Positions 1 to 8,453 of a DNA stretch of 23,018 bases are shown here, in pieces. The position numbers and the translations under genes were made by a program. This DNA is from a virus: IMG/VR virus record IMGVR_UViG_3300030329_002491, positions 1 to 23,018 of that record, one strand, 5' to 3'. The notes beneath the pieces are model-generated. The model did not search any database. It was not told the origin of the DNA and saw only the letters and a list, made by a program, of their open reading frames with translations. How positions within the stretch are numbered: the stretch's first letter is position 1; every line of letters begins with the position of its first letter.

Positions 1-461
1 TTGGGATCTTCCCATACCACGGTCAATTCATTGTGCCCCTTGGCCTTGATCAACTGTGTAGCATCACCGCCCTGACTCATCACTGAGTTACTCCACTCGC
101 ACACATCTGTGTGTTCATCGGATGTCAGGATGATTTTGCCCTCTGCGTTGTCCTCGAACTCAGCCCATTGGGCCTTGCCCTTTTTCGTCCGGCGGTCGAT
201 CTTGGGGGCCACGGTGTAATCGTTGTGCCAGTTGTCGTCGAACAATCGTGAGTGCAGTGCCTGACCTAGCACCAAGGCCCGTGATGGTGGATCAGGTGCG
301 ATCATCTTGTTCAATGCATGTGCTGGTGACCGCCGAAACGGCTTCAACACGCTGGCATTGACGGCATCTATCGCTGCATACTGATCGAACGTCAAACCTG
401 CGAACACTCCCGGCTCAGCCTTGGGGATGTCACTGTCAAATGTCTTTGGTTTCCTTGCCAT
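1..461 (-). CDS. RecE-like / DUF3799 PDDEXK exonuclease, C-terminus outside window
   Basis: The first 153 residues of a probable phage recombination exonuclease of the RecE-like exodeoxyribonuclease VIII / DUF3799 (PDDEXK) family. Such enzymes resect double-stranded DNA to give 3' tails for an annealing protein. Visible family signatures are NASVLKPFRRSPAHAL (residues 35-50), LGQALH (65-70), a PKIDRRTKKGKAQWAEF stretch (86-102) and NELTVVW (144-150). The remaining acidic/Lys catalytic residues should lie past the left edge. The ATG at 461 is preceded by GGAG eight bases upstream within the shared leader GGAGTACGAAA. It overlaps the end of the preceding gene by 26 bases. The family assignment rests on recalled motif resemblance; a RecT or SSB gene would be expected to the left. 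Confidence 0.8.
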   Translation of the reverse strand, partial: MARKPKTFDSDIPKAEPGVFAGLTFDQYAAIDAVNASVLKPFRRSPAHALNKMIAPDPPSRALVLGQALHSRLFDDNWHNDYTVAPKIDRRTKKGKAQWAEFEDNAEGKIILTSDEHTDVCEWSNSVMSQGGDATQLIKAKGHNELTVVWEDP

Positions 462-702
462 TTTCGTACTCCGGTTCTGATAAAAAATCTATCATCGCAG
501 TAAAACCTACGTCTATCGTGTATCCGATAGCGACCCATGTTTTGCGTGGCAGCTTGACAGATATGACCTGCTCTATGTTGTCAGTATTTACTTGTTCAAG
601 GATGCCCCTAAGTGTCTTGGAAAAATCTTCCAGATCCTCACGAATCGTTGGGTCAGGCAGTTGGGCCAATCGAACGCACGCATCTTTAAGTTGTTTGTTC
701 AT
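436..702 (-). CDS. hypothetical protein, 88 aa
   Basis: I do not recognise this protein. It is small and soluble-looking, with an N-terminal amphipathic, probably helical half (DACVRLAQLPDPTIRED, residues 7-23) followed by a more beta-like stretch around VISVKLPRKTWVAIGYTIDVGF. It has no signal peptide, membrane segment or cysteine cluster beyond one Cys. The start ATG overlaps the TGA of the preceding gene as ATGA and is preceded by AGAGG at normal spacing, so it is probably translationally coupled. Its own end overlaps the start of the exonuclease gene by 26 bases. The position suggests a role accessory to recombination, but this is only inference from context. Confidence 0.65.
   Translation of the reverse strand: MNKQLKDACVRLAQLPDPTIREDLEDFSKTLRGILEQVNTDNIEQVISVKLPRKTWVAIGYTIDVGFTAMIDFLSEPEYENGKETKDI
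462..473 (-). promoter_or_regulatory. shared translation leader, gene starting at 461
   Basis: Reads CGGAGTACGAAA then ATG on the minus strand. Identical to the leader of the 2818 gene and complementary to the 6683-6720 hairpin loop. Confidence 0.6.
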
Positions 703-2631: not shown

Positions 2632-2818
2632 CAACCCCCTTATTGATGCGTTCATCCAGGCCCATCGTCGCGGCATCTAGATCGCTAAGAACGGCTTCAC
2701 CGACTAAGCCGGTCGCCTTGATCGTCGCTCGTACACTCTGGCATCCGCCAACCATCGGCATAATGCACAAGCAACACAGCAGAACAAAAGCCATAAGTAC
2801 TCTTTTAAACCTGATCAT
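2621..2818 (-). CDS. small lipoprotein, 65 aa
   Basis: A lipoprotein by sequence: a basic start (MIRFKR), a hydrophobic core rich in Leu and Cys (residues 7-22) and a lipobox VGGC with Cys26 as the acylation site. The mature part is only about 40 residues and acidic, ending VDDD. In phages a short lipoprotein next to a lysozyme can be an outer-membrane spanin subunit. There is no proline-rich stretch or clear partner here, so that remains a guess. It starts at 2818 behind the shared leader GGAGTACGAAA and overlaps the next gene by 11 bases. Confidence 0.6.
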   Translation of the reverse strand: MIRFKRVLMAFVLLCCLCIMPMVGGCQSVRATIKATGLVGEAVLSDLDAATMGLDERINKGVDDD

Positions 2819-2830
2819 TTTCGTACTCCA
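2819..2830 (-). promoter_or_regulatory. shared translation leader, gene starting at 2818
   Basis: Reads TGGAGTACGAAA then ATG. Second perfect target of the hairpin loop; a small inverted repeat lies directly upstream. Confidence 0.6.
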
Positions 2831-2870: not shown

Positions 2871-3119
2871 TCATTCGCTTTGAATCACGTCTGTATCTCG
2901 AACACAAGATGAACACACAAACAACTCATCTGATCCTGTCGAATCCCAAACAGTCACACCGATCTCTGTACTGAAGTATCCCTCAGCTAAGAGACTGCAT
3001 CGTCCACAACGCTTTGCATCATCGAGCCATGGATCACTGCACCCTGCACACACATTGTCTGTGGATGGGCAGCCGTCTTCATCAATCCCTACACCATCAC
3101 CGCACTTAATACACTGCAT
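2871..3119 (-). CDS. Cys-rich putative zinc-binding protein, 82 aa
   Basis: A soluble, acidic protein with ten or so cysteines arranged as CIKC (residues 3-6), an isolated Cys near 17, CAGC near 24-27, CGRC near 38-41 and CSSC near 69-72. CxxC pairs at these spacings suggest two zinc ribbons or a treble-clef fold. It carries no recognisable catalytic residues. The start at 3119 has GGAGTACGACG just upstream, the same leader shape used by neighbours, plus a shared TGCACCTTTGGT stretch. Its function is unknown. Confidence 0.65.
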   Translation of the reverse strand: MQCIKCGDGVGIDEDGCPSTDNVCAGCSDPWLDDAKRCGRCSLLAEGYFSTEIGVTVWDSTGSDELFVCSSCVRDTDVIQSE

Positions 3120-3149
3120 CGTCGTACTCCTGCACCTTTGGTTGGTTAG
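3120..3149 (-). promoter_or_regulatory. shared translation leader, gene starting at 3119
   Basis: Reads CTAACCAACC, then a TGCACCTTTGGT-related stretch, then GGAGTACGACG before ATG. It has nine bases of identity (GGAGTACGA) to the hairpin-loop complement. The TAA of the gene upstream is part of CTAACC. Confidence 0.55.
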
Positions 3150-3394
3150 TTGTCATCGGTTATTTCCTCTTGGCACTTTGCAAATTCCATCACTGCGTCA
3201 GCAAATTCATCATTCCCATTACCAACTGCGTCTACAACGGCGATAAGAAGGTGCGCACCTTTTGCCCCAGTCAGGCCGAATAACGCTGCCGCTAGGTGGG
3301 ATGCCGCATCGACCTCATCGGTGCAGCTACCCTCGACAAGATCCAAGATACTATCCGCTGTCTTGGGGTTGAAATCTGCAAACGGTATACTCAT
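3146..3394 (-). CDS. hypothetical protein, 82 aa
   Basis: Unrecognised small acidic, probably all-helical protein: DSILDLVEGSCTDEVDAASHLAAALFGL and HLLIAVVDAVGNGNDEFADAVMEFAKC are helix-like stretches. The start at 3394 is preferred over the in-frame ATG at 3400, because GGAGT then lies nine bases upstream rather than three. It is the first gene behind the candidate promoter at 3429-3457. It ends with TDDN and a TAA whose downstream bases form the start of the next gene's leader. Confidence 0.6.
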   Translation of the reverse strand: MSIPFADFNPKTADSILDLVEGSCTDEVDAASHLAAALFGLTGAKGAHLLIAVVDAVGNGNDEFADAVMEFAKCQEEITDDN

Positions 3395-3416
3395 TGTCAT
3401 TCACTCCTATGGTTGT
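3395..3416 (-). promoter_or_regulatory. shared translation leader, gene starting at 3394
   Basis: Reads ACAACCATAGGAGTGAATGACA then ATG region; lies just below the internal promoter. It decides the start at 3394 against 3400. Confidence 0.5.
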
Positions 3417-3428
3417 GTTGTTTAGATA

Positions 3429-3457
3429 ATCTTAACAATCAATCCTGGGATTGTCAA
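3429..3457 (-). promoter_or_regulatory. candidate internal leftward promoter with palindromic spacer
   Basis: Minus-strand TTGACA (perfect -35, complement at 3452-3457), a 17-base spacer, and TAAGAT as -10 (3429-3434) preceded by TGT, an extended -10. The spacer contains the palindrome CAATCC/GGATTG, a likely operator. Transcription would start near 3422, before the gene at 3394. Confidence 0.5.
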
Positions 3458-3762
3458 GTATCATCATCGATAAATGTTACCGTCATTTTTTTGACTCGGC
3501 CCTCAGAGTTTTTTTCAACGGTAACCCGATACACCCCATCGCCATAGCCTGTTGAAACCAGCGTACATATTCCCGCGCCTAATGGTTGCGATGCCATATT
3601 GCGCTGGAATTCAGATTTCGGGCCGATCTTATCGCAGAATGCTTGCCAGTCATCCACTCCATTGGTGGCAAACTCGCCAAGAATGTAGCATGGGTCTGCC
3701 AAAATAAGGGTTCCAGAGTCAACGTAATTCTCAAAGATCATTGTTTTATTTTTATTATTCAT
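3454..3762 (-). CDS. conserved phage protein with DPCY and GDGxY motifs, 102 aa
   Basis: A small protein of a widely seen but unnamed phage family. The hallmarks are VDSGTLILADPCY (residues 14-26), a Trp-containing helix (DDWQAFCDK) and STGYGDGVYRV (70-80), followed by a beta strand near the end (KKMTVTFID). Function is unknown. The conserved Asp, Cys and Tyr suggest a compact beta-rich domain. The start at 3762 carries GGAGTGAATAACG upstream. The stop codon overlaps the -35 element of the next promoter (3429-3457), so that promoter reads away from this gene's 3' end. Confidence 0.65.
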   Translation of the reverse strand: MNNKNKTMIFENYVDSGTLILADPCYILGEFATNGVDDWQAFCDKIGPKSEFQRNMASQPLGAGICTLVSTGYGDGVYRVTVEKNSEGRVKKMTVTFIDDDT

Positions 3763-3785
3763 CGTTATTCACTCCATCGGTTAGG
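3763..3785 (-). promoter_or_regulatory. shared translation leader, gene starting at 3762
   Basis: Reads CCTAACCGAT, then GGAGTGAATAACG before ATG. The CCTAACCGAT block nearly matches the 4322 leader (CTTAACCGAT). Confidence 0.5.
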
Positions 3786-3805
3786 TTGTTATCGTCCATC
3801 ACGCC

Positions 3806-4051
3806 TTAGCATGTATAAAATTCCAGATGAAATTGGCGCTGGTCATCTTCGGATACATTGAGCATGTACAGAACCTCATCCACAGCGCGTTTGTTCCTGG
3901 GGTCTACTCGGTTTTGCTGTTTTGATTCGATAGCCCAGGTGGCCAGCGCCTTGCACATAGCCGATACCGTATCTGCTTGAGTTGTTGGATGTTGCGCGTG
4001 CAATTCGTCAACGAATTTTCTTATAGATTGACGGTTATTCTTTATTGCCAT
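3806..4051 (-). CDS. hypothetical protein, 81 aa
   Basis: Unrecognised helical, basic N-terminal protein (MAIKNNRQSIRKFVDEL) with a mid-section AMCKALATWAIESKQQNRVDPRNKRAVDEV and an acidic C-terminal part. The start at 4051 is chosen because the leader GGAGTACGAACA ends exactly at this ATG. A longer reading beginning with TTG at 4090 would include that leader as codons. Nothing in the sequence indicates a membrane or metal-binding role. Confidence 0.6.
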   Translation of the reverse strand: MAIKNNRQSIRKFVDELHAQHPTTQADTVSAMCKALATWAIESKQQNRVDPRNKRAVDEVLYMLNVSEDDQRQFHLEFYTC

Positions 4052-4072
4052 TGTTCGTACTCCGTTGGTTAG
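4052..4072 (-). promoter_or_regulatory. shared translation leader, gene starting at 4051
   Basis: Reads CTAACCAAC then GGAGTACGAACA before ATG. It shares ten bases (GGAGTACGAA) with the hairpin-loop complement and fixes the start at 4051. Confidence 0.55.
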
Positions 4073-4109
4073 ATTGTCATGGTCGATCAATTAAAACTGC
4101 AAGCGCGCC

Positions 4110-4322
4110 TTATTCCCATTCGCCATGGTCGGCAAGTTTCAATTCGTCCCATTCCACATCGTCATCACCGGATTCTGTTAGGTATTGGTGCAATTCAACT
4201 TTCATTGCTTCCGATTCTGATGCGAATTGAGCGCCACAACTCGCCACCCATACATTGCCATTCCACGTCACTTCCAGCGTATCTCCGTATATGGTTTTGA
4301 ACTTAGTTGCCTTAGTTGCCAT
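4110..4322 (-). CDS. hypothetical acidic protein, 70 aa
   Basis: Unrecognised. A possible beta hairpin (KFKTIYGDTLEVTWNGNVWVA) at the N-terminus leads into a helix (ASESEAMKVELHQYL) and an acidic tail (SGDDDVEWDEL). Start at 4322 has GGAGTAAATAACA immediately before it. The leader also contains the TAA of the gene upstream (4341-4520). A 58-base gap without obvious features separates it from the next gene start at 4051. Confidence 0.6.
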   Translation of the reverse strand: MATKATKFKTIYGDTLEVTWNGNVWVASCGAQFASESEAMKVELHQYLTESGDDDVEWDELKLADHGEWE

Positions 4323-4344
4323 TGTTATTTACTCCATCGGTTAA
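4323..4344 (-). promoter_or_regulatory. shared translation leader, gene starting at 4322
   Basis: Reads TTAACCGAT then GGAGTAAATAACA before ATG. The TAA is the stop of the 4341-4520 gene, so stop and leader are fused. Confidence 0.5.
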
Positions 4345-4520
4345 GGTTTTCGGATCAATCCCACGGTATATTTGTGGCCAGATAGCCTAGGGTATTCATG
4401 GCGCGCGTTTAGTCGTGCTAGGATCTTGTTTGGCGCTTGCACTTGTACGCGCTGATTAATCTTGCCGTCTGCATCGTATGACGTGACTTGCCAGGTTCTA
4501 ACTTTCGGTATTCGTGCCAT
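4341..4520 (-). CDS. hypothetical basic protein, 59 aa
   Basis: Unrecognised small basic protein. The first half resembles a beta-strand unit, WQVTSYDADGKINQRVQVQA (residues 9-28), and the second half a helix (NKILARLNARHEYPRL). The start at 4520 (MARIPKVR) is preferred to the ATG at 4526 because GGAGTAATGACA then gives a normal eight-base spacing. The chain ends IRKP with a TAA that lies inside the leader of the next gene. Confidence 0.6.
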   Translation of the reverse strand: MARIPKVRTWQVTSYDADGKINQRVQVQAPNKILARLNARHEYPRLSGHKYTVGLIRKP

Positions 4521-4538
4521 TGTCATTACTCCAGATTA
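4521..4538 (-). promoter_or_regulatory. shared translation leader, gene starting at 4520
   Basis: Reads CTAATCT then GGAGTAATGACA before ATG, a more divergent copy of the upstream half. Confidence 0.45.
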
Positions 4539-4556
4539 GTTGTTATTGTTTATTGG

Positions 4557-5339
4557 CTATGCTGTTGCGCTTATTGTTAACGCTTGCACTTTCGGTAAAT
4601 TTTGACCTGTTTTTGCATGTGCATTGACGTAGATTGATTTTGCGTGGACTGCTGATCCAGAGCAGAGCAGACAATCTTCACATTGGACACCATGGCTGTA
4701 ATAGGGACATTCAATCGCATCGGTTGGCGCTTCCCCATTGGGAGTTTTTACCGTGAATGCTCGCCAACCGTAGCTAGTTGCGATATCATGTTGCGCGTTA
4801 TCGTCACATGAGCACATGACCAATTTTGACAATCTGTCGGCCAATGGTCGATCAGTTTTGGCAATATCGAATAGTTGATGCGAATACCCGGTATGGCCAG
4901 CAGACAAGCGCGCCAAATGTTCTAAAATTTCACATGGCAGCGCAGCCGGGTCACCATAAGCGCCTAATCTCGTTTTGCGCCCTTTTATGTATTTTGCATG
5001 GATTTTAGGATCATAAACCGGATAAAGTCCGCGCTTGTATGATTTATGGATTGTATCCGGCGCTTGGCCAACGTTAACATAGCAGACACGGTCAACCATC
5101 TTGCCTAGTTTGTTATCAAACCGGCCTTGAAGTTTGCACGATCCGCAAGCGCCCTTGTTATTGTTGTTCTGAAGCGCTTCCAGTGGTGATAGGTCTGCTG
5201 GCAATATCCACACTTGCACCATATCTCCGGTTTTGCCATTTCTACTATGCAATGTGGCTATGGCTACGATGTTTTGATCGCTGATTGCCGATTTACCCTC
5301 ATAAAGTATAAAACCTTTAGGCCGTTTAATTGCTACCAT
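4557..5339 (-). CDS. conserved Cys-rich phage protein, 260 aa, unknown function
   Basis: The largest leftward gene. It shows a recognisable conserved layout: an N-terminal LYEGKSAISDQNIVAIAT, then CGSC (residues 65-68), CYVNVGQAP (86-94), RLGAYGDPAALP (124-135), GHTGYSHQLFD (148-158), CSCDD (176-180) and a C-terminal cluster CPYYSHGVQCEDC with LLCSG (211-228). I recall similar proteins from phage and bacterial genomes under DUF-type names (possibly DUF7227; not certain). The nine or more cysteines suggest a metal or cluster site. No catalytic chemistry can be assigned. The start at 5339 has GGAGTGTAGACA directly before it. Confidence 0.7.
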   Translation of the reverse strand: MVAIKRPKGFILYEGKSAISDQNIVAIATLHSRNGKTGDMVQVWILPADLSPLEALQNNNNKGACGSCKLQGRFDNKLGKMVDRVCYVNVGQAPDTIHKSYKRGLYPVYDPKIHAKYIKGRKTRLGAYGDPAALPCEILEHLARLSAGHTGYSHQLFDIAKTDRPLADRLSKLVMCSCDDNAQHDIATSYGWRAFTVKTPNGEAPTDAIECPYYSHGVQCEDCLLCSGSAVHAKSIYVNAHAKTGQNLPKVQALTISATA

Positions 5340-5366
5340 TGTCTACACTCCTCTATGGTTGGTTAG
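5340..5366 (-). promoter_or_regulatory. shared translation leader, gene starting at 5339
   Basis: Reads CTAACCAACCATAGA then GGAGTGTAGACA before ATG. The TAA stop of the 5363-5728 gene lies in CTAACC. Confidence 0.55.
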
Positions 5367-5728
5367 CTGTTGGCTTTGTCGATTGCTATGCGGAGGTTGT
5401 TCCGCTGCGTTTCGGATATCGCCCAATGCGTCCGGTAATACTCGTCCTCTACCTCAAAACCATTATTGATAGCGCACTTCGCTGCTTTGATTAAGTCCGG
5501 GGTTGCGTCTCTTTTGTGATCTTCTTCCATGCGTAGCGCCTTAATCATTGTCCATATGTAGTCGTTAACTTGGCGTTTTGTTCCGCGCGGGGATATGTCC
5601 ACCGATCCGTTTTTAGCCTCTAATCGTGGCTGGCCGTAAGCCCAACCTATCGAGTAATCCGCCCATGGCTGATGGGCTTGTAGTACTTTCACGCTTCGTT
5701 CTAACATTGCTTTTGTTACTTGTTCCAT
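5363..5728 (-). CDS. hypothetical protein, first leftward gene, 121 aa
   Basis: The promoter-proximal gene of the leftward block. Unrecognised, but has features reminiscent of small phage proteins: a helical N-terminus (AMLERSVKVLQAHQ), ADYSIGWAYGQPRL, a short basic loop SPRGTKRQVNDYIW, and a helical C-terminal half (ATPDLIKAAKCAINNGFEVED). One Cys, no signal or membrane segment. The start at 5728 is preceded by GGAGTGTAAACA and by TAGGAG. Being first, it may be the earliest expressed product. Confidence 0.6.
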   Translation of the reverse strand: MEQVTKAMLERSVKVLQAHQPWADYSIGWAYGQPRLEAKNGSVDISPRGTKRQVNDYIWTMIKALRMEEDHKRDATPDLIKAAKCAINNGFEVEDEYYRTHWAISETQRNNLRIAIDKANS

Positions 5729-5756
5729 TGTTTACACTCCTATATGGTTGGTTGGT
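5729..5756 (-). promoter_or_regulatory. shared translation leader, gene starting at 5728
   Basis: Reads ACCAACCAACCATATA then GGAGTGTAAACA before ATG. It nearly matches the 5339 leader, although it has no upstream gene, so the leader is not just the end of a coding sequence. Confidence 0.55.
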
Positions 5757-5781
5757 TGTCTCGTCTAATCCTTATCGGCTG

Positions 5782-6137: not shown

Positions 6138-6416
6138 ATGGCACATCGCGCAAAATCTTGGCGCAATCTACTCGCGCAGATTGAAAATGATCTCTCAATT
6201 GGTTCTTGTTCCACTTGTGACGGTCAAGGTGTAGACGGATCGACCTATTTAATCCTTGATGGCGATCCTATGCCGGCTGATGCCGGCGGTTGTCCCGAAT
6301 GTGGCAAGCTTTCAAGCTTGGCCAGTGTAGTCGTACTACACGATAGGCAAGCGCCACAAGTGCCGCAGAATATAGATGATCAAGGTGTGATGGAAAATAG
6401 GCCACGTGGTAAATGA
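6138..6416 (+). CDS. small zinc-ribbon protein, 92 aa
   Basis: A short basic-start protein with CSTCDGQG at residues 24-31 and, after a spacer containing DGDPMPAD, CPECGKL (residues 52-58). Two CxxC pairs of this type commonly make a single zinc ribbon. A short hydrophobic strand (SLASVVVLHD) follows. It is the first rightward gene after the divergent control region. The ATG at 6138 has no convincing Shine-Dalgarno sequence (upstream is TTGATGATAT), so the start is less certain. No function is assigned. Confidence 0.55.
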   Translation: MAHRAKSWRNLLAQIENDLSIGSCSTCDGQGVDGSTYLILDGDPMPADAGGCPECGKLSSLASVVVLHDRQAPQVPQNIDDQGVMENRPRGK

Positions 6417-6682
6417 TGGCAAATGGTTATGGTGTAGTGGTTTAAAAAAAACCTCGAGCAAAGGTGAAGTAGTGCCAGGTTTGGTAGTTGTAAGGTAGGG
6501 GGGGGGAGGGGGTAGCACGTTTCTGGTTCCATCATACCCCTATATATATCCACTTCCCCACGAAATTTTTTGTTTTGGCATTTGGATTTTGGGTTATGGT
6601 TGGTTATGCTTTATTTAGGACACCGAGCCGGTTTTGGGAACTGGTATGATGTGTTCTTACTTTTACTCTTCATTCCTGGGCT
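6417..6682. other. non-coding leader with G-rich tract
   Basis: No gene is supported. It contains G9-A-G5 at 6498-6512, an A8 run near 6444-6452 flanked by GGTTT and AACC, and the extended -10 candidate at 6642-6650. A short inverted repeat CCGGTT/AACTGG spans 6628-6644 next to this promoter. I see nothing else. Confidence 0.4.
6642..6650 (+). promoter_or_regulatory. candidate extended -10 promoter, rightward
   Basis: TGGTATGAT is a TGn extended -10 with a five-of-six TATAAT match. No -35 is visible at 17 bases upstream. Transcription would start near 6657, leaving a leader of about 60 bases up to the terminator hairpin at 6683-6720. It would serve the rightward late block or a short terminated RNA. 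Confidence 0.35.
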
Positions 6683-6720
6683 GCCGTGAGTTTTCGTACT
6701 CCTCACGGCGGTCTTTTTTT
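6683..6720 (+). terminator. intrinsic terminator or attenuator with antisense-like loop
   Basis: Perfect eight-base stem GCCGTGAG (6683-6690) and CTCACGGC (6702-6709), then seven T residues (6714-6720). The loop TTTTCGTACTC, extended by one base to TTTTCGTACTCC (6691-6702), is the exact complement of GGAGTACGAAAA, which is the ribosome-binding leader of the genes starting at 461 and 2818. It lies 14 bases before the 6734 gene. Confidence 0.75.
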
Positions 6721-6733
6721 AGGGGTATATACG

Positions 6734-7090
6734 ATGATAGATTACGACAAGTGGCTGACACGTTTGTTTAAGGTTTCGGTCGTGGTTTATGTGGTGATAT
6801 CTTTGGTTGGATGTGCGGAATTGGATAAGGTTGTGGGTGCTGGCGAGCCTGAGGTAGCGGCCAAGGTTGACCAGACGATTGACGAGGTATCTGGCGTAGC
6901 TGACTTATGGTTTCCCGGATCGGGCGTAGCGATTGCTGGTTTATTGACATTTGGCACTAGGGAGTATCGCAAGCGTCGCCGTGCGCAGTCGGCATTGATT
7001 GAGATCAATGATTTCAAGGGTACGCCTTCAGCCAGGAGTCAGGTTCGATCTGGCGAGGCGATTGATGCTATTCGAGAGGCCATTGGTTAA
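6734..7090 (+). CDS. small lipoprotein / membrane protein, 118 aa
   Basis: A short basic-hydrophobic leader (residues 7-24) ends in the lipobox LVGC with Cys27, so the mature protein is probably membrane anchored. After an acidic stretch there is a second hydrophobic segment (SGVAIAGLLTFG), followed directly by a basic run REYRKRRRAQ. This second segment could be an inner-membrane contact. Start at 6734 is taken because AGGGG lies directly upstream; the earlier start at 6686 would read through the terminator hairpin. It sits just before the terminase. A holin-like role is possible but unproven. Confidence 0.55.
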   Translation: MIDYDKWLTRLFKVSVVVYVVISLVGCAELDKVVGAGEPEVAAKVDQTIDEVSGVADLWFPGSGVAIAGLLTFGTREYRKRRRAQSALIEINDFKGTPSARSQVRSGEAIDAIREAIG

Positions 7091-7121: not shown

Positions 7122-8453
7122 ATGCCTGTAATTCGTAAAACTTCCCCAGTTTACCATGCTTATGGTGGTGCGACGAAGGTTTTCACGTCCAACGCCCCCG
7201 AGGTCTTGTTTGCCGGTGCTGCGGGTACGGGTAAATCGCGTGCAAGTTTGCAGAAAACGAAGTATTTGTGCGATAACAACCCGAAAATCAGCGTACTTTT
7301 CGCTCGAAAGACCCGAAAGTCCTTGACTGACACGATTTTGCCGATTTGGGAGAAGGAGGTGCTTCCACCGGGTCATTCTGCACCGCAGCGTGGTGCTGGA
7401 AAGATGCGATATACGAGGCATGACTACAAGTGGGCGAACGGATCGGAGGTTGTTCTTGGTGGTATGGACGATCCGACGGCGATCATGTCCGGTCAGTTCG
7501 ATTTTATCATTGCATTTGAGGCAACGGAGCTTACGGTCAACGATTGGGAGTTATTGACCACTCGCTGCCGCCAGCGGATGATGCCATTGCAGCAGTGTAT
7601 CGCTGAATGCAACCCTGGCCCGCCGAATCACTGGCTTTTGAGGCGTGCAAATGAGGGGAAGATGGAGCATGTCACGTCTTTGCATGAGGATAATCCGACT
7701 GCGGATGAGGGATACCTCAATTCGCTACGGAATATGACTGGGGTACGGCGAAAACGGCTGTATTTGGGGCAATGGGCCGCTGCCGAGGGTGTTGTATACG
7801 AGAATTGGAACCCGAATATGCATGTGATCAAGGCACGGTCACGGTCAGAACTGAAGAAGAAGTTCGGGGTAAAGCACTTCATATGCTCCAAGGACTGGGG
7901 TTATACCAACGCAGGGGTAACGCAGGTATGGGGCGTTGACGGTGATCGAAGGATGTGCTGCTTCGAGGAGATTTATCATTCTCATGAAACCCCCGACTGG
8001 TGGATCGCCAATGACAAGAGCATCGACGAGAAGTACAAGCCCAAGGCTTGGACGTGTGACCCGTCACGACCGGAGTATATTACGCAGTACAGGAGGCATG
8101 GTATTAAGGCTGTGCCTGCCGATAACAAGATGGATGTGGGTTTACAGAGAGTTGAAGAGCGGCTTGGCACGTCAGGTGACGGAAAGCCACGCCTATACTT
8201 CTACCAGGACACGATCAAGAAGGTGGACAACTATCTGCTGGAGAACGATCTTCCGGCAAAGACAATCGATGAGTTCCCGACTTATGTCTGGGAGGAGGCA
8301 AGACCGAATAAGAATTACAAGGAAGAGCCGAAGGACGTGAACAATCATGGAATGGATGCGATGCGGTACGCCGTCATGTGGGTAAACCGATACGGACACA
8401 CGACCCCATCGTCACGAAATACTTCAAAGAGAGGCTTACGTTATGTCGCCTGA
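7122..8453 (+). CDS. terL: terminase large subunit (ATPase/nuclease)
   Basis: The packaging motor, which cuts concatemeric DNA and pumps it into the procapsid through the portal. The N-terminal ATPase has Walker A GAAGTGKS at residues 32-39 and an acidic Walker B region FIIAFEATEL (128-137), with NPGPPNHW (164-171) as the coupling-type segment. The C-terminal RNase H-like nuclease has the expected three aspartates: SKDWG (Asp258), TCDPS (Asp313) and GMDAMRY (Asp412). Length 443 aa is usual for a TerL. No small terminase subunit is recognisable, although the 6138-6416 product is a candidate only by position. The next gene starts 11 bases before this one ends. Confidence 0.9.
   Translation: MPVIRKTSPVYHAYGGATKVFTSNAPEVLFAGAAGTGKSRASLQKTKYLCDNNPKISVLFARKTRKSLTDTILPIWEKEVLPPGHSAPQRGAGKMRYTRHDYKWANGSEVVLGGMDDPTAIMSGQFDFIIAFEATELTVNDWELLTTRCRQRMMPLQQCIAECNPGPPNHWLLRRANEGKMEHVTSLHEDNPTADEGYLNSLRNMTGVRRKRLYLGQWAAAEGVVYENWNPNMHVIKARSRSELKKKFGVKHFICSKDWGYTNAGVTQVWGVDGDRRMCCFEEIYHSHETPDWWIANDKSIDEKYKPKAWTCDPSRPEYITQYRRHGIKAVPADNKMDVGLQRVEERLGTSGDGKPRLYFYQDTIKKVDNYLLENDLPAKTIDEFPTYVWEEARPNKNYKEEPKDVNNHGMDAMRYAVMWVNRYGHTTPSSRNTSKRGLRYVA

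Follow-up and report, generated by a model that had tools for sequence, protein, structure and literature searches.

The question raised by this locus is whether a hairpin ahead of a phage operon serves only to stop transcription, or whether its loop also acts on the ribosome-binding sites of genes read in the opposite direction. The window, the whole stretch of viral DNA analysed here (23,018 bases), contains leftward genes from 5728 down to its left end, an exonuclease VIII-like gene among them. Rightward genes are present from 6734, with a terminase, a portal protein and a weak match to a major head protein. The hairpin is located between the two groups. The features are collected in Table 1.

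Table 1. Positions of the features in the window, with the mycobacteriophage element in the last line
Feature	Position	Strand	Remark
Leader and start codon of the exonuclease VIII-like gene (3-461), GGAGTACGAAAATG	459-472	-	exact 12-nt target; duplex -19.7 kcal/mol
Leader and start codon of a 65-aa lipoprotein-like gene (2621-2818), GGAGTACGAAAATG	2816-2829	-	exact 12-nt target; duplex -19.5 kcal/mol
Leader of gene 2871-3119, GGAGTACGACGATG	3117-3130	-	weaker target, 9 contiguous matches; -17.2 kcal/mol
Leader of gene 3806-4051, GGAGTACGAACAATG	4049-4063	-	weaker target, 10 contiguous matches; -16.7 kcal/mol
Other members of the start-associated leader family (3400, 3762, 4322, 4526, 5339, 5728)	3385-5759	-	shared GGAGT and related spacer; repeat families D1, D2, D4
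Small ORF of 92 aa upstream of the terminator	6138-6416	+	two CxxC pairs; no Pfam match
Extended -10-like motif TGGTATGAT	6642-6650	+	putative promoter of the short terminated RNA
Candidate terminated RNA, about 60-65 nt	6657-6720	+	putative RNA with presumed start; fold -21.9 kcal/mol
Intrinsic terminator stem-loop	6678-6714	+	13 pairs; T run after it to 6720
TTTTCGTACTCC, loop (11 nt) and first base of the 3' arm	6691-6702	+	antisense of the RBS motif GGAGTACGAAAA
First gene after the terminator, 118-aa lipoprotein-like	6734-7090	+	start codon 14 nt past the T run
Terminase large subunit	7122-8453	+	PHROG terminase, Pfam Terminase_3; marks the packaging/virion operon
Conserved, structured, largely unannotated element near the right genome end	L053:28580-28760 (Adephagia record ~58,579-58,759); homologues in L055, L056, L057-L073

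Terminator hairpin and candidate promoter

The strongest terminator-like hairpin of the window has the features of an intrinsic (Rho-independent) terminator, a stable GC-rich stem with a U tract directly after it (6678-6720). According to the fold of 6657-6720 (z = -5.4), the 13-bp stem carries a loop of 11 nt (6691-6701), which is predicted to be 97% unpaired in the 64-nt RNA. The initial annotation had described a hairpin loop of 12 bases. The antisense match is indeed perfect over 12 bases, but the loop itself has 11; the complementary stretch consists of the whole loop and one stem base. The minus strand at the terminator is without an ORF of at least 40 aa, and Rfam gave no match for the hairpin. 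The 9-mer ACTCCTCAC at 6698-6706, which spans the loop and the 3' arm, is identical to bases 1-9 of the ultraconserved 11-mer of cyanobacterial Yfr1; this is probably a coincidence.

No obvious promoter is present between the terminator and the first rightward gene, and therefore rightward transcription from upstream must cross the terminator. The arrangement suggests that the terminator is an attenuator or antitermination site for the rightward operon. The small ORF with the CxxC pairs is, from its position, a possible regulator of this operon.

The motif at 6642-6650 had been proposed as an extended -10 element for a short terminated RNA. The motif is there as described, but the promoter call is weak: two TGNTATNAT sites in total are found on the two strands of the window against 4.4 expected, 6642-6650 being one of the two, and no TTGACA-like -35 was seen by eye 17 nt upstream. 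A G-rich run is located upstream of the candidate promoter (6498-6512). In the leftward cluster, the best sigma-70-like promoters (TTGACA, 17-nt spacers) are inside the cluster, at 3457-3429 and 1548-1520 of the minus strand.

Complementarity of the loop to leftward leaders

The minus strand has three exact copies of GGAGTACGAAAA, at 461-472, 2818-2829 and 6691-6702. The first two overlap the start codons of the exonuclease and lipoprotein genes, and the third is opposite the loop. On the same strand, 4052-4063 matches with one mismatch (11 of 12, with 10 contiguous bases) and 3119-3130 with two (10 of 12, with 9 contiguous). Thus, the perfect antisense relation to the 461 and 2818 leaders and the 9-10 matching bases at the 3119 and 4051 leaders, both claimed in the initial annotation, are confirmed. 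The match to the leaders spans the entire loop and ends where the start codon would follow. The 461 leader sits within the 3' end of an overlapping upstream ORF (436-702, 88 aa).

Loop duplexes were calculated for 35 leaders. The four strongest are those with 461, 2818, 3119 and 4051, all leftward (-19.7 to -16.7 kcal/mol), and they fall in the 0.05-0.5% tail of random window segments. Pairing with the remaining leaders is weak, so that about 4 of 18 leftward leaders pair well, and the 5' tail of the candidate RNA shows no pairing with other leaders clearly above background. The leader regions are predicted to be 33-73% unpaired. An 11-nt loop that is fully paired is geometrically strained. 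Nested co-folding did not show the pairing of loop and leader, and this method cannot represent loop-loop (kissing) pairs.

The 12-mer is one variant of a leader family. About ten leftward leaders contain GGAGT and a related spacer, and in the window one RBS-containing motif is thereby found at many non-structural gene starts, as in a start-associated system. AACC-rich stretches are present upstream of several of the leftward ribosome-binding sites (3119-5759, minus strand). A leader with the similar sequence ACCAACCAACCAAGAGGAAC was seen in another locus, L024.

The initial annotation had also claimed that a given 12-mer is not expected three times by chance in 23 kb, and the counts agree with it. 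GGAGTACGAAAA is the only 12-mer that occurs at least three times in the window, and dinucleotide shuffles contain 0.025 such 12-mers on average. When up to two mismatches are allowed, seven matches are found against 1.7 expected, and none of 100 shuffles reached seven. In a Monte Carlo calculation with random 11-nt loops, closed by G-C and having the dinucleotide content of the window, a match over 12 nt to any of the 35 leaders occurred with P = 8.5e-5 (about 1 in 12,000), and to the leftward leaders alone with P = 3.8e-5. The chance is roughly 6e-4 when the seven terminator-like hairpins of the window are allowed for. Among 356 terminator-like hairpins from the window and 43 loci, the window terminator is the sole case of a non-self 12-nt match between loop and leader; one further 12-nt match comes from a hairpin that itself overlaps a start codon. 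These results indicate that the complementarity is genuine and well placed to block translation, and that simple chance is unlikely. The window was pre-selected from an unknown number of windows and the pairing was noticed post hoc; for these two reasons the match is regarded as suggestive and not as proof. A reading of thousands of windows would be expected to yield one such coincidence.

Explanations of the complementarity

The first explanation is that the hairpin is a plain attenuator or terminator, overcome by antitermination or leaky read-through, and that the loop resembles the leaders by chance. We give it close to an even chance. Attenuation alone would account for a terminator whose distance to the first rightward gene is 14 nt, with no evident promoter in the gap. 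A chance likeness would be aided by the CTCC/GGAG common to the 3' arm and the leaders as well as by the post hoc selection from many windows. In the window, 73 12-mer pairs were seen and about 37 are expected by chance, and most leftward leaders are unmatched. Against a chance loop stand the P value of the Monte Carlo calculation and the single case among 356 hairpins, and the whole loop is matched to the ribosome-binding sites of two genes, with two near matches in addition.

In the second explanation, the rightward operon leader gives rise to an anti-RBS RNA that acts in trans. We consider it plausible, at somewhat less than an even chance and about level with the first. The hairpin would be the leader terminator of the packaging/virion operon. 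As long as transcription does not continue into the operon, a promoter located somewhere in 6420-6660 would give rise to a short RNA ending at the terminator. In its loop of 11 nt, this RNA would carry the antisense of one variant of the repeated start-associated ribosome-binding site, and the loop may pair in trans with the exonuclease (461) and lipoprotein (2818) leaders, and more weakly with those at 3119 and 4051. Pairing in cells would cover the Shine-Dalgarno sequence and the spacer up to the start codon, and translation would be lowered. As in an anti-RBS antisense RNA, an unpaired stretch is complementary to the Shine-Dalgarno and start region beyond chance. The initial annotation had proposed a block of leftward translation in trans, as an early-to-late switch. 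The unpaired loop, the complementarity beyond simple chance and the K1 phages described below favour such a block in part, but only about 4 of the 18 leftward leaders pair well. A short RNA, early expression of the leftward genes and an early-to-late order of the switch would have to be assumed in addition.

The same complementarity may act in reverse. Abundant leftward leader RNAs would sponge the short RNA or modulate read-through, and the rightward operon, in whose leader the terminator lies, would be coupled to leftward mRNA. This is improbable, as pairing of the loop need not open the 13-bp stem, and no alternative antiterminator fold was found in the prediction. Slightly less probable still is a functionless relic, a minus-strand RBS without a start codon left in the loop by recombination among the leaders, which are a repeat family and may recombine as repeats do: the identity ends at the stem edges, and neither flanking leader sequence such as the AACC stretch nor a start codon is found alongside.

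Relatives and known systems

Relatives in which the proposed anti-RBS loop could be compared were searched for. The window DNA had no match in 50,697 phage records. No IMG/VR or phage record (searched with the terminase, capsid, portal, 601-aa protein and a leftward gene) and no GTDB genome (searched with the terminase) shared more than one gene with the window. The relatives of the terminase have identities of at most about 41-45%, and no similar terminator with a loop that matches was found upstream of them. A specific DNA pattern of the hairpin gave no match in IMG/VR. Seven IMG/VR contigs contain the 17-mer GAGTTTTCGTACTCCTC, and in none of them is it surrounded by a comparable hairpin; its complement would read Glu-Glu-Tyr-Glu-Asn if translated.

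A terminator after the gene of a DUF5906 protein (L039:9453-9490 and L040:6722-6753) has a loop, TCCTCACT, complementary to the leader of its own gene. It was rejected as a pairing case. In 75 of 80 viral contigs (L074-L153), the loop is UCCUCACU(C) or a close variant on differing stems, whereas the match of the leaders to the loop is not kept in the 80 relatives. Because the loop is kept and the leaders are not, the case gives no support to pairing. In L039 and L040, the stop codon of the upstream gene appears to supply the TGA of the complementary stretch. The loop GGAGGAA of L024 was too short to weigh.

The lambda 6S RNA and late leader terminator have an operon-leader layout resembling that of the window. 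Among the features of the lambdoid late leader (pR'/tR'/Q), the terminator before the terminase operon is present in the window; no good promoter was found, and for the ORFs searched neither PHROGs nor Pfam named a Q-like gene. StxS, a 74-nt small RNA of Shiga toxin phage, is likewise a short phage RNA able to act in trans (PMC12197685). The targets of both systems differ from those proposed here, and the window is without an identified Q-like antiterminator or late promoter. The c4 antisense RNA of P1 and P7 is a phage RNA that blocks translation through segments, likely presented in loops, that are complementary to the RBS region of its phage target mRNA (reviewed in PMC12197685). However, c4 targets the ant mRNA for immunity, whereas the candidate in the window would act in trans on several leaders of the opposite strand. 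Yfr1 of cyanobacteria is a small terminated RNA with an anti-SD-like core (PMC2190773), of which the 9-mer ACUCCUCAC is found across the loop and 3' arm of the window hairpin. In Yfr1, the full ACUCCUCACAC is unpaired between two hairpins, whereas the window has one hairpin and 9 of the 11 bases, half of them in the stem; the Yfr1 arrangement is thus absent.

A partial, independent parallel is found in Cluster K mycobacteriophages. Each genome has 11-19 copies of their 13-bp start-associated sequence (SAS), GGGATAGGAGCCC, and almost every copy is at a gene start (PMC3203893). A single oppositely oriented copy, away from an obvious gene start, is found in each of Anaya, Adephagia, Angelica and CrimD and was left unexplained (PMC3203893). 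In the genome stretches examined here, 8-15 exact copies were counted. In Adephagia and Anaya, a long hairpin has the antisense copy in its terminal loop of 10 nt. The hairpin occupies the gp92-gp93 gap of Adephagia, and in some relatives part of the region carries gene annotations. By chance, 0.04 antisense copies with no more than one mismatch would be expected in the Adephagia stretch of 29.6 kb. Eight K1-like phages (Adephagia, Anaya, Niklas, Efra2, LastHope, Amelie, LaterM and Kashi_VT1) have an unchanged loop core CCTCCTATCC, which complements the SAS core exactly. In these eight and Hammy, 98% of the stem pairs are kept; two pairs differ in both bases and others in one base. The count is small, and the pairs with both sides changed do not stand out from shuffles as covariation. 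In the literature searched, which has the 2019 ZoeJ paper outside it, no report of this K1 antisense-loop hairpin was found.

The hairpin belongs to the element in the last line of Table 1. At its start, upstream of the SAS hairpin, a conserved promoter-like motif, TTGRCG ... TTTTAGACT, is present in most phages, and several hairpins are predicted in the element in all phages examined. The matches from Rfam searches with the element regions of three phages all scored far under the curated thresholds. The loops of Hammy, Krueger and Tierra pair with the SAS at about 8 of 10 positions, and the mean duplex energies of loop and leader are -16.9 kcal/mol for Hammy and -19.2 kcal/mol for Krueger against -8 kcal/mol for random segments. 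The K3 phages (Pixie, Hurricane), Marshawn, KiSi and Omnicron have no matching loop though the element is kept, and the SAS is nevertheless abundant in Pixie and Marshawn, the two in which it was counted. The comparison of kept stems with matching loops is thus mixed in Cluster K. By analogy, the K1 parallel may be taken as partial, and not universal, support for the anti-RBS idea in general.

A broader hypothesis is that phages with a start-associated RBS encode a cognate anti-RBS hairpin RNA controlling the whole motif-bearing set, which would have arisen independently as the terminator of the window and as the K1 element. We consider it unlikely, though worth stating. The purpose of the mycobacteriophage SAS was left open at its description in 2011 and again in 2024-2025. 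If the hypothesis is true, it would explain why the leaders are conserved beyond the Shine-Dalgarno core; if it holds for the phage of the window, the terminated leader of one operon would control the translation of opposite-strand genes. With the antisense hairpin as partner of the SAS, the question becomes testable in a standard laboratory phage, Adephagia on M. smegmatis, and Cluster K, which raises the general anti-RBS idea, is the better system for a direct test.

In both systems, many non-structural leaders carry one RBS-containing repeat, and one antisense copy lies off the gene starts (for Cluster K, PMC3203893). The two differ in sequence and in phage: the motif of the window is not the 13-bp SAS consensus and is less uniform than it, and the window DNA, without a match in the phage records, shows no kinship to Cluster K. 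The K1 hairpin lies within a larger conserved element, whereas the hairpin of the window is a terminator with a T run.
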